Shown here one piece after another: positions 8,904 through 12,909 of a DNA stretch of 64,000 nt; the stretch's first letter is position 1; each line of letters starts with the position of its first letter. The notes below the pieces were generated by a model. The model was given only the letters and a program-made list of their open reading frames with translations. It ran no database searches and had not been told where the DNA came from. The position numbers were made by a program, and so were the translations under genes. This DNA comes from Meiothermus cerbereus DSM 11376 (GTDB lineage Bacteria > Deinococcota > Deinococci > Deinococcales > Thermaceae): assembly GCF_000620065.1 (NCBI RefSeq), contig NZ_KK211061.1, positions 106,585 to 170,584 on the forward strand. Reading direction: 5' to 3'.

Positions 8904-8933
8904 ATTCTAACCATAAATACCAGATTTGGTCAG
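8904..8933 (-). promoter_or_regulatory. asnS promoter, leaderless type
   Basis: On the minus strand: CTGACC (8933-8928), 18 nt, TAGAAT (8909-8904), then 6 nt to the GTG start of asnS. This spacing leaves no room for a ribosome binding site. Confidence 0.55.
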
Positions 8934-9033
8934 TTTTCTGACCCAGGTCGGTAAGCTGGCCCAACCGCGGAACCCTGTGCCCACGTGCAGAGGCGAGCCA
9001 ATTTCATCTCACCCCCGCGCTCCCGATTTGCGT

Positions 9034-9039
9034 TATGAT
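9034..9039 (+). promoter_or_regulatory. dnaE -10 box
   Basis: TATGAT sits 9 nt before the ATG at 9049, placing transcription start at or next to the start codon. No convincing -35 box is seen. The spacing supports the choice of this start over in-frame codons upstream. Confidence 0.45.
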
Positions 9040-9048
9040 ACCTGCGTA

Positions 9049-12000
9049 ATGGCTACCGACCTAAATCCACAGAACCGGCATAACCCCAGTACCTGCCCAG
9101 CTTGTAAATTTGCCCACCTGCACCAGCACACCCAGTTCAGTCTGCTGGATGGGGCGGCGAGGCTCAAAGACCTGCTCAAGTGGGTCAAGCAGGTCTCGCC
9201 CGAGGAGCCCATGCTGGCCATGACCGACCACGGCAACATGTTCGGGGCGGTGCAGTTTTACAAATATGCCAGTGAGATGGGGGTCAAGCCCATTATCGGC
9301 TACGAGGCCTATGTGGCGGCGGAATCGCGCTTCGACCGCAAGCAGGGCAAGGGGCTGGACGGGGGCTACTTTCACCTCACGTTGCTGGCCCAGAATATGG
9401 AGGGCTACCAGAACCTCTCCCGCCTGGCCAGCCGGGCCTACCTCGAGGGCTTCTATGGCAAACCCCGCATCGACCGCGAGATCCTGCGCGAGCACAACGC
9501 TGGCATTATTGCGCTGTCGGGCTGTCTAGGGGCCGAGATTCCGCAGTTCATCCTGCAGGAGCGCTTTGAGGACGCCGAAAAACGCCTGCAGGAGTACCTC
9601 GCGATTTTCGGCCCTGAGCGCTACTTTATCGAGATTCAAGACCACGGCCTGGCCGAACAACACAAGGTGAACAAAGTTTTGAAGGAGTTCGCCGACAAGT
9701 ACGGCCTGGGCCTGGTGGCCACCAACGATGGCCATTACGTAAGAAAAGACGACGCCGAGGCCCACGCGGTGCTGCTGGCGGTGCAGTCCAAGGCCACCTG
9801 GGACGACCCAAACCGCTGGAAGTTCCCCTGCGACGAGTTTTACGTCAAGAGCCCCGAGGAGATGCGCCAGACCTTTGACGACGAAAAAGAGCTCTGGGGC
9901 AGCCGCATGGACGAGCTCTTCGACAACTCGGTGAACATCGGGCGGATGTGCAACGTGGAGCTGGTGCCCAAAAAAGTGCAGTACCGCATCCCCAAATACC
10001 CGCTGCCCGAGGGCCGTACCGAGGTGATCTATTTCCGCGAGCTCACATTTAACGGGCTGCTCAAGCGTTACCCCGAACGGGTAACCCCTGAGCTATACCG
10101 GGAGTTTCTGCGCAAGATAGGTCGTCCGGTGCCGCATGGCGATGGGGAGATGCTGGCTTTGGAGCTGGCCCGCATCGAGGACCTCGAGGCCACCCGGGCC
10201 CACCTGCCCGAACTAAAGGAAGGTATCGAATGGGATGGGTGGGCCATTCTGTCCCGTGCCATCTACGAGCTCTCGGTGGTGGAGCGCATGGGTTTTCCGG
10301 GTTATCTGCTTATCGTGGGCGACTTCATCAACTGGGCCAAGGACCACGGCATCTCGGTGGGGCCGGGCCGCGGCTCGGCGGCGGGTTCACTGGTCACCTA
10401 TGCTACCCGCATTACCAACATCGACCCCCTGGCCTATAACCTGCTTTTTGAGCGCTTCCTCAACCCGGCCCGGGTTTCCATGCCCGATATCGATACCGAC
10501 TTTTCCGACGTGCGCCGGGGTGAGGTGATTGAGTATGTGCGCCAGCGCTACGGCGACGAGATGGTCGCCCAGATCGGTACCTTTGGTACGCTGGCGGCCA
10601 AAGCCGCCATCAAAGACGCGGCGCGGGTGTTTGGGCTGCCGGTCAAAAAGGCTGACGAACTGGCCAAGCTCATTCCGGTGACTTTTGGCAAGCCGATGCC
10701 GCTGGACAAGGCCGTGGAAGCCATCCCCGACCTGCGGGCCGAGATGGAGAAAGACCCGCTGGTCAAGCGGGTGCTCGAGGTGGCCCAGAAGCTCGAGGGC
10801 CTTTCGCGCCAGAGCAGCGTGCACGCCGCCGGGGTGGTCATCTCCGACGTACCCCTGCGCGACTACATTCCTTTGATGCGGGCTGGGGACACCGGGGCCA
10901 AGGTGACCCAGTACGACATGGGTTCGGTGGAGGCCTTGGGGTTTTTGAAAATGGACTTTTTGGGCCTGCGGACGCTTTCCTTCCTGGATGAGTGCAAACG
11001 CATCGTCAAAGAGTCCAAAGGGGTCGAACTCGATTTTGATAACCTGCCCATCGATGATTCCAAGACCTTTGAGCTGTTGGGCCGGGGGGAGACCAAGGGG
11101 GTTTTTCAGCTCGACTCAGCTGGCATGACCAGTGCGGTGCGGGGCCTCAAGCCGCGCCGCATCCAGGACATTATCGCCCTGGGCGCCCTTTATCGGCCCG
11201 GCCCCATGGAGAACATTCCCACCTACATCCGCCGCCACCACGGGCGCGAGGAGGTGAGCTATCCGCAGTTCCCCAACGCCGAGAAGTACATCCGGCCCAT
11301 CCTGGAAGAGACCTACGGGATTCCGGTTTACCAGGAGCAAATCATGCAGATCGCCACTGCTGTGGCCGGCTACAGCCTGGGCGAGGCCGACCTGCTGCGG
11401 CGGGCCATGGGCAAAAAGAAGATGGAGGAGATGGTCAAGCAGCGGGCGCAGTTCAAGGAAGGGGCGGCCAAAAAGGGCATTCCCGCCGACGAAGCCGACC
11501 GTCTGTTCGACCTGCTCGAGGCCTTCGCTAACTACGGCTTCAACAAAAGCCACGCGGCGGCTTACGCCATACTGACCTACCAGACTGCCTACGTAAAAGC
11601 CCACTTCCCGGTAGAGTTTTTTGCTGCGGTGCTCACGGTCGAACGCCACGACTCCGATAAAGTGGCGGAGTACATCCGGGCAGCCCGCATCGCCGGGGTG
11701 GAGGTGCTTCCCCCCGATATCAACCAGTCGGGCTTTAGTTTCCGGGCGCTGGAAAAGAGCGTGCTGTTTGGGCTGTCGGCAGTAAAAAACGTGGGCGAAA
11801 CGCCCACCGAGCTTATCCTCAAAGAGCGCGAGCGAGGGGGGCCTTACAAATCGTTGCCGGACTTCCTGCGGCGGCTCGATGGAACCGTGGCCAACAAGCG
11901 GGTGGTGGAGTCGCTGATTAAGGCCGGGGCTTTTGATGCTTTTGGCCCTCGAGGCCCCATGCTGGCGGCGCTTGACGACCTACTCAAGTGGGCCCAGTCC

Positions 12001-12909
12001 GAACGCGAGCTGGCCCAGTCGGGCATGATGGGGCTTTTTGGTGAGGCGCAGGAGCCCGTAATCCCCAAGGCCCCGCTGCTGGATGCCTTAACCGAGCTTC
12101 GCATGGAAAAAGAGGCCCTGGGCATCTATGTAACTGGGCATCCGCTTTCACGCTACGAGGGGCTGCGGGAAGCCGCAAGCTGTACGGTGGAGGAGTTGCC
12201 TCAGGCTTTTGCCGAACACCAAGGCAGCCGCAACCTGGCAAACGGCGGCGATAGCCGTCTGCCCCGACAGGGGATGGTCTTGGTGAACAGCGGCGATAGC
12301 CGTCTGTCCCGACAGGGGATCGCCCAGCGGGTGCGATTGCTTTTGGCAGGCATGGTGGAGGGTATTGTGCGCAAGCCGACCAAGTCGGGTGGAATGCTGG
12401 TGCGCTTTACCCTGGCGGACGAGACCGGGGCGGTAGAGGTGGTGGCCTTTGGCCGGGCCTACGACAAAATTTCCCCCCGCATCGCCGAGGACGCCGCGGT
12501 GCTGGTGCTGGTGGAGGTGGAGCCCGAGGGCGAGGGGGAGAGCCTGCGGGTGGTGGCGCAGGATGTGTTTCCTTACAGCGAGCTCGAGGGCCTGCCCAGG
12601 GTGCTGGAGCTCGAGCTAGACCTGGCCTTGCTCGACGAAGAAAAACTCCTGGAGCTGCGCAGCCGACTCGATGAGGCCTCCGGGCCGCTGCCGGTACAGC
12701 TCAAGGTGCGGGGGCCGGGGGGCTGGGCCATGATCGAAGCCCGCGAGGTCAAGGTGAGCGAGCAGGCTCCTGGGTTGTTGCAAGACCTGGACTGGCTCGA
12801 GGCCCGCTTGATTCCCGACCGTGAGATGCTGCTGGGCTATGGCAAGCCGGCCGAGGGCAACTTTAGGAACCAAAAAGGATCGGATCAGGGGCCGGTGGTT
12901 CCGTTCTAA
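9049..12909 (+). CDS. dnaE: DNA polymerase III alpha subunit
   Basis: The protein is 1286 residues from ATG 9049; the 41 in-frame codons upstream lack conservation. Domains in order: PHP domain (HLHQHTQFSLLDG, MTDHGN, residues ~20-290), palm with catalytic acidic motif MPDIDTDFSD (~residue 480), the SVGPGRGSAAGSLV loop, thumb/fingers (YRPGPMENIPTYIRRHHG, YGIPVYQEQIMQIA, YGFNKSHAAAY), then an OB fold (~1095-1170). It closely resembles Thermus DnaE, the replicative polymerase. No intein is present. Residues 1062-1091 are a 15-residue in-frame tandem repeat just before the OB domain, which Thermus aquaticus DnaE lacks. Confidence 0.95.
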   Translation: MATDLNPQNRHNPSTCPACKFAHLHQHTQFSLLDGAARLKDLLKWVKQVSPEEPMLAMTDHGNMFGAVQFYKYASEMGVKPIIGYEAYVAAESRFDRKQGKGLDGGYFHLTLLAQNMEGYQNLSRLASRAYLEGFYGKPRIDREILREHNAGIIALSGCLGAEIPQFILQERFEDAEKRLQEYLAIFGPERYFIEIQDHGLAEQHKVNKVLKEFADKYGLGLVATNDGHYVRKDDAEAHAVLLAVQSKATWDDPNRWKFPCDEFYVKSPEEMRQTFDDEKELWGSRMDELFDNSVNIGRMCNVELVPKKVQYRIPKYPLPEGRTEVIYFRELTFNGLLKRYPERVTPELYREFLRKIGRPVPHGDGEMLALELARIEDLEATRAHLPELKEGIEWDGWAILSRAIYELSVVERMGFPGYLLIVGDFINWAKDHGISVGPGRGSAAGSLVTYATRITNIDPLAYNLLFERFLNPARVSMPDIDTDFSDVRRGEVIEYVRQRYGDEMVAQIGTFGTLAAKAAIKDAARVFGLPVKKADELAKLIPVTFGKPMPLDKAVEAIPDLRAEMEKDPLVKRVLEVAQKLEGLSRQSSVHAAGVVISDVPLRDYIPLMRAGDTGAKVTQYDMGSVEALGFLKMDFLGLRTLSFLDECKRIVKESKGVELDFDNLPIDDSKTFELLGRGETKGVFQLDSAGMTSAVRGLKPRRIQDIIALGALYRPGPMENIPTYIRRHHGREEVSYPQFPNAEKYIRPILEETYGIPVYQEQIMQIATAVAGYSLGEADLLRRAMGKKKMEEMVKQRAQFKEGAAKKGIPADEADRLFDLLEAFANYGFNKSHAAAYAILTYQTAYVKAHFPVEFFAAVLTVERHDSDKVAEYIRAARIAGVEVLPPDINQSGFSFRALEKSVLFGLSAVKNVGETPTELILKERERGGPYKSLPDFLRRLDGTVANKRVVESLIKAGAFDAFGPRGPMLAALDDLLKWAQSERELAQSGMMGLFGEAQEPVIPKAPLLDALTELRMEKEALGIYVTGHPLSRYEGLREAASCTVEELPQAFAEHQGSRNLANGGDSRLPRQGMVLVNSGDSRLSRQGIAQRVRLLLAGMVEGIVRKPTKSGGMLVRFTLADETGAVEVVAFGRAYDKISPRIAEDAAVLVLVEVEPEGEGESLRVVAQDVFPYSELEGLPRVLELELDLALLDEEKLLELRSRLDEASGPLPVQLKVRGPGGWAMIEAREVKVSEQAPGLLQDLDWLEARLIPDREMLLGYGKPAEGNFRNQKGSDQGPVVPF
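12232..12321 (+). repeat. Two 45-bp tandem repeats inside dnaE
   Basis: Copies at 12232-12276 and 12277-12321 share the 28-nt core GGCGATAGCCGTCTG-Y-CCCGACAGGGGA and encode NLANGGDSRLPRQGM and VLVNSGDSRLSRQGI. Copy 2 is bounded by GGCGAT...ATCGCC and has an internal CTGTC/GACAG stem, so it resembles a palindromic mobile repeat inserted in frame. Confidence 0.85.

Follow-up and report, generated by a model that had tools for sequence, protein, structure and literature searches.

A dispersed hairpin repeat lies in tandem and in frame within dnaE of a Meiothermus species

REPs lying within genes are known from several bacteria; replication and repair genes host many of them, and one has been described in the DnaE of R. 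conorii (in the passages of PMC3733652 drawn on here). RPEs, including RPE-4/RPE-6 and RPE-1, are scattered palindromic repeats that occur outside genes as well as, in frame, within many unrelated ones (same passages of PMC3733652), with a length given as about 150 bp in the sections used of PMC10969869. CGTC-tagged REPs (Di Nocera et al. 2013, PMC3733652) are presented in those passages as hairpin repeats of 20-40 bp with an unpaired CGTC at one end and a single stem of 8-9 bp that starts with A/T pairs and encloses a loop of 4-5; no dedicated transposase is known for them, some are intragenic, including in replication and repair genes, head-to-head dimers predominate, direct (HT) dimers are negligible and clusters are rare. 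Finally, MITEs such as RUP, NEMIS, ERIC and Nezha, described there as 70-300 bp long with terminal inverted repeats of 15-30 bp, are short elements, non-autonomous and able to form in-frame fusions with genes (PMC3733652).

The repeat studied here, found in tandem in dnaE of a Meiothermus species, resembles RPEs in being palindromic, dispersed and in frame in unrelated genes as well as present outside genes, but its units measure 38-44 nt, stand in direct tandem, prefer a CC-NCYN target and occur in the Thermaceae; by the description of RPEs excerpted above, it is a family separate from them. With the GTAG REPs associated with RAYT it has in common a hairpin unit, dispersed copies and some intragenic ones, but its units are without the GTAG end and Y1 presence is mismatched with repeat presence. 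Unlike a CRISPR array, with its unique spacers of about 30 nt, it has spacers of 1-7 nt. The CGTC tag of CGTC REPs stands 5'. CGTC is also found near one end of the Meiothermus units, which are similarly short and in part intragenic; compared with the CGTC REPs as characterized in those passages, however, the units have 2 hairpins, the CGTC lies 3' of the second hairpin, there is no CCA tail, and the arrays (29 of 2-6 units) run in direct tandem and not as head-to-head dimers. The short internal hairpins likewise differ from the 15-30 bp terminal inverted repeats that the same source gives for MITEs, and which the Meiothermus unit does not have; at 38-44 nt the unit is also shorter than the 70-300 bp of MITEs.

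We analyzed a window of 64,000 nucleotides from a draft genome of 3,034,817 bases, which represents one strain of the species. Within the dnaE ORF of this window (Table 1), whose true start may be an ATG somewhat 3' of the listed TTG, positions 12236-12275 and 12281-12320 hold 2 direct 40-nt copies that are 90% identical, 45 nt apart and in frame, and a 29-nt core allowed up to 3 mismatches found not even one match in any of 100 shuffles of the window. An in-frame tandem repeat had been proposed at this place by the sequence-only reading, as 45-bp copies spanning 12232-12321 and adding about 30 residues; the tandem arrangement and the 45-nt spacing stand, whereas the bounds move to 12235-12327 and the units are of 44 nt. 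Codon alignment confirmed a clean insertion of 31 codons, which is absent from all 36 other aligned DnaE loci (29 from family genomes plus 7 from other contigs, 2 sets that overlap in species); within the alignment this genome alone has it, and the orthologs show an undisturbed empty-site junction, CGCAAC/CGGGTG. A wider DnaE search gave matches in 49 of the 50 family genomes, with none in G009, and the matches from genomes outside the alignment likewise break at this point. Unit 2 is counted as 44 nt and not 43 because the loop of its hairpin 2 has 4 nt. The palindromes proposed from the letters need slight correction in the light of the family: GGCGAT, taken with ATCGCC as a boundary, is an arm of hairpin 1 plus its loop, and the CTGTC/GACAG stem is a chance alternative in copies with a GACA loop.

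Table 1. Features of the dnaE locus (positions in the window)
Feature	Position	Strand	Basis
dnaE (DNA polymerase III alpha subunit), carrier of the insertion	8926..12909	+	ORF list; homology to 2hpi/3e0d and Thermaceae DnaE
Insertion relative to every aligned ortholog, 93 nt, 31 codons, encoding LANGGDSRLPRQGMVLVNSGDSRLSRQGIAQ	12235..12327	+	codon alignment, 36 other DnaE loci
Repeat unit 1, 44 nt, further from family consensus	12237..12280	+	covariance model R1, 51.7 bits
Repeat unit 2, 44 nt, near consensus	12282..12325	+	covariance model R1, 68.2 bits
Hairpin 1 of unit 2, ACAGCGGC-GATA-GCCG-T-CTGT	12287..12307	+	fold; family covariation
Hairpin 2 of unit 2, CCC-GACA-GGG	12308..12317	+	alignment, fold

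The insertion had also been placed directly before the OB domain, at a short linker of Taq DnaE, and the structural comparison agrees, as the match to Taq DnaE (2hpi/3e0d) stops at residue 1039 and resumes at 1042, with 2 residues between. The ortholog alignment shows an interdomain linker here, and its length varies. When the last 334 residues of DnaE were modeled with AlphaFold2 (38-row alignment, mean pLDDT 79.3), pLDDT fell below 50 for residues 112-141 of the fragment, with an OB-fold strand beginning at 145, and the insert is predicted to be a disordered linker just before the OB fold.

The suggestion that the element would be RPE-like, with copies of its core elsewhere in the genome, was borne out. 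Searching the genome with the dnaE region by blastn returned 31 places at E<=10 and 16 at E<=0.001, and a covariance model built from 20 units returned 56 dispersed matches at E<=1. Across the 50 family genomes, matches at E<=0.01 were obtained in 23, corresponding to 15 of 18 Meiothermus genomes, both of g2, both of g3 (presumably Calidithermus) and 4 of 27 of g4 (which we take to be Thermus); at this threshold there were none in Meiothermus G006, G007 and G010 nor in g5. The 4 g4 genomes had a single marginal match each (E 0.002-0.01), which we took as chance. In the class-wide search at E<=1e-5, 19 of 111 genomes in 3 of 31 genera were positive, and beyond Meiothermus and 2 related genera the rest of the 111 genomes gave no match. 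Carriers include the sequenced type strains M. ruber DSM 1279 (G004) and Allomeiothermus silvanus (G018). Regarding carriage by phages, a 19-nt core had no exact match in IMG/VR and a six-unit array had no blastn match in a phage collection. Assignment to a known RNA family was considered for locus L248 only and set aside, as its 3 Rfam matches at E<=1 all fell under the gathering score. An apparently intergenic element occupies the same site in 4 species (L197:1501-1589, L271:1077-1119, L273:1038-1080, L282:1010-1052), just 5' of an apparent ribosome binding site and start codon, and could possibly be a retained regulatory hairpin.

Units of the family come in 2 forms. The long ones, of 43 or 44 nt, follow GGTGAACAG-CSGC-N4-GCSG-T-CTGT-CCC-N3/4-GGGGATCGTCC, and the short ones, of 38 nt, keep both ends and have a shorter first stem; the conserved ends are GG and TCC-like. 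The pairing conserved in the family is ACAG-CSGC(N4)GCSG-T-CTGT followed by CCC(N3-4)GGG. In stem 1, 97.3% of cells are paired across 20 sequences and 10 cells are changed on both sides, a result that none of 500 shuffles reached, whereas stem 2 says nothing on covariation because it hardly varies. A wider set, from which 17 units of deviating length were excluded, comprised 49 distinct long units, with 97.4% of their stem positions paired versus 80.9% with partners swapped, and 43 short units, with 82.6% versus 66.7%. Single units fold modestly better than their shuffles (z -1.0 to -2.4). The unit can fold into 2 short hairpins, the first of which covaries. Within arrays the units are near-identical, the spacers are mostly of 4 nt, and successive copies typically repeat at a distance of unit + 4 nt.

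We consider it very probable that the dnaE feature represents 2 tandem copies of this dispersed, hairpin-forming, non-coding DNA repeat, inserted in the lineage of this Meiothermus species. An enzyme acting in trans would move the element by recognizing its hairpin and target, although no transposition event was observed and no mobilizing enzyme found; the element would insert without regard to genes, and survival would be limited to insertions that leave the reading frame intact within a tolerant loop or linker. Arrays would then gain or lose whole units, as in dnaX, and the DnaE insert would be a tolerated disordered linker with no new function.

Other genes carry the repeat in the same manner. 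Codon usage indicated coding-like sequence in one frame on both sides for 18 of 99 arrays, and ortholog alignments yielded 14 insertions with clean empty sites, amounting to 13 positions in 12 genes. In the same genome as our dnaE these are dnaE itself, the copper ATPase, trpD and the gene of L245; elsewhere they are found in Pgm (G014), DegT (G016), topA (G017) and an AMP ligase (G015), in cse1 at the same position in G018 and G021, in cse2 at 2 positions in G021 and G005, in the gene of L254, where G016 has 2 units and G008, at the identical site, has 1, and in the gene of L248 (G014) with 6 units. The in-gene copy proposed for L234 was dropped, its insertion not being clean in the alignment; L284 and L294, flagged as in-gene candidates outside the ortholog alignment, were likewise dropped, and L237 and L268 were set aside for weak coding signal. 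Several inserts interrupt Pfam domains, for example HAD (504-768) around 588-635, DegT (14-391) around 174-188, Topoisom_bac (63-521) around 347-359, and also PGM_PMM_I, Cse1 and Cse2. The 2 Cascade genes carry the element in 3 genomes (L256, L266, L275), at one shared cse1 position and 2 cse2 positions, a recurrence that may reflect chance, site preference or operon transfer.

To characterize the junctions, we used the 99 arrays (97 with distinct flanks) minus those with odd ends or neighboring units, which left 72. The element prefers sites that read CC-NCYN up to its left end: CC stands at -6/-5 in 49 of the 72 arrays against a background of 0.108, and, taken singly, position -6 is C in 63 arrays, -5 and -3 are C in 53 each, and -2 is C or T in 67. 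On the right side G is found at +5 in 43 arrays and at +6 in 36, and GG together in only 21 (background 0.112). Because the units open with GG and close with CC, every junction takes on the look of a fresh CCNNNNGG site, which would account for the direct arrays and their period of unit + 4. The 4-mers on the left and right agree at 128 of 288 positions versus 98.9 by permutation (0 of 2000 as high), and at least 3 of 4 bases match in 15 arrays versus 8.5 (25 of 2000 as high), so that a target-site duplication is only partly supported. At the empty sites, flanking 4-mers are identical for cse1 of G021 (GTCT) and cse2 of G005 (CCCT), near-identical for topA and cse2 of G021, and different for the AMP ligase, the copper ATPase and trpD. 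A simple four-base duplication holds at some sites only and was rejected as a general rule.

The AMP ligase and copper ATPase junctions bear on a finer form of our explanation, in which a circle of unit + 4 nt would recombine at CCNNNNGG through a site-specific recombinase, leaving one flank native and the other from the donor. Both genes keep the inferred native 4-mer on one side and have an unlike 4-mer on the other, which in the ATPase is the array's own spacer; however, the same 4 nt on both sides of the cse1 and cse2 insertions in G021 and G005 fit simple target duplication, and we regard the circle as a possibility that is rather to be doubted. With similar reserve, we suggest tentatively that the repeat might belong to a previously undescribed class of mobile hairpins, with unit + 4 nt as the module and an unrecognized enzyme as the mover. 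Each insertion would regenerate the element's own CCNNNNGG target, and tandem growth would then be built in. The module lengths, 44 + 4 = 48 nt and 38 + 4 = 42 nt, are multiples of three, and a 43-nt unit needs a 5-nt spacer to fit a gene; if the class is real, the 38- and 44-nt forms would be frame-neutral by length and pre-adapted to life inside genes, and would continually supply these thermophiles with new protein segments. In this genome, 44-nt units occupy 3 of 4 coding long-type loci versus none of 13 non-coding ones (Fisher p 0.006, leaving out the 44-nt locus L234, of unclear status, which counted as non-coding gives p of about 0.019 by hand calculation), and the fourth coding locus combines a 43-nt unit with a left spacer of 5 nt. 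The lengths of the verified inserts, also multiples of three, are no test because these cases were chosen for an open frame, and 44-nt units also occur commonly outside verified genes in the other genomes, so the frame preference is not general.

A short hairpin unit in dispersed copies would also be expected of a REP moved by a RAYT (Y1) transposase, like the GTAG REPs of Proteobacteria, and a Y1_Tnp gene is present in 19 of the 50 family genomes, our own included. Among these 50 genomes, in which Y1 was the transposase considered, its presence does not track repeat copy number: G012, G013, G015, G016 and G017 have 9 to 19 repeats with no Y1_Tnp match, and G006 and G010 have Y1_Tnp with no repeats. 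Together with the missing invariant GTAG end, this makes mobilization by RAYT unlikely.

Alternatively, the repeat could be retained because the proteins benefit from the peptide or linker it encodes, in line with the many inserts that lie in housekeeping proteins still intact. This we hold to be very unlikely, as many copies lie outside any coding frame and the orientation relative to the gene is mixed, with peptides that differ by frame (VNSGDSRLS, GEQAREGSVP, DDPLSGQ, GRSPSGQ); the use of both orientations and several frames indicates an element acting at the DNA level.

Variation in unit number brings in local tandem duplication or slippage of host sequence with no mobile element. dnaX carries a variable-copy array of the family in its tau linker, where 14-residue units (L287, L299, L377, L380) number about 4 in M. 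ruber G004, 2 in G013, 2 in G012 and 1 in G017, and 5 further genomes show none (12 loci were given and 9 returned output). Such variation, and the near-identity of units, speak for slippage, which is likely responsible for array growth; as the sole cause it is refuted and highly implausible, leaving unexplained the unit at unrelated loci, the clean insertions of single units and the common target preference. An old DnaE-specific loop common to the Thermaceae and merely repetitive-looking, which the variable length of this interdomain linker might favor, has practically no chance of being correct and is ruled out by the 0 of 36 other loci with the segment in the DnaE alignment and by the same DNA in unrelated genes and between genes.

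Returning to an inserted, dispersed repeat, searches of the open-access full-text literature listed no paper that, judged by title and abstract, describes this Meiothermus family. The sequence-only reading, which knew of no similar process here and named Rickettsia as precedent, was too narrow on precedent, in-gene palindromic repeats being known well beyond Rickettsia and in the DnaE of R. conorii (PMC3733652, passages cited above). The names Meiothermus, Thermus and Deinococcus occur at no word start in the main text of PMC3733652, one passage of which mentions D. radiodurans, and the repeats mentioned in the portions used of the Meiothermus genome papers PMC3035268 and PMC3035272 are CRISPR only. 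Elements of this kind are known; what appears to be new is the lineage-restricted family, together with its arrangement in direct tandem arrays and its preferred target. Gene invasion by small palindromic DNA, best known from Rickettsia, thus occurs also in free-living thermophiles, where it affects core machinery (dnaE, dnaX, topA, the copper ATPase and Cascade subunits). The CC-NCYN target and the 42/48-nt module yield concrete predictions, and because M. ruber DSM 1279 and Allomeiothermus silvanus are carriers, repeat movement and any effects on proteins could be tested directly.

Some copies lie in or near transposase genes of insertion sequences (L284:1085-1122, L232:1158-1195, L042:1501-1538), and insertion sequences may help to carry repeat copies between sites. 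One insertion sequence occurs in Allomeiothermus silvanus (G018) in about three dozen near-identical copies, which match a transposase fragment.
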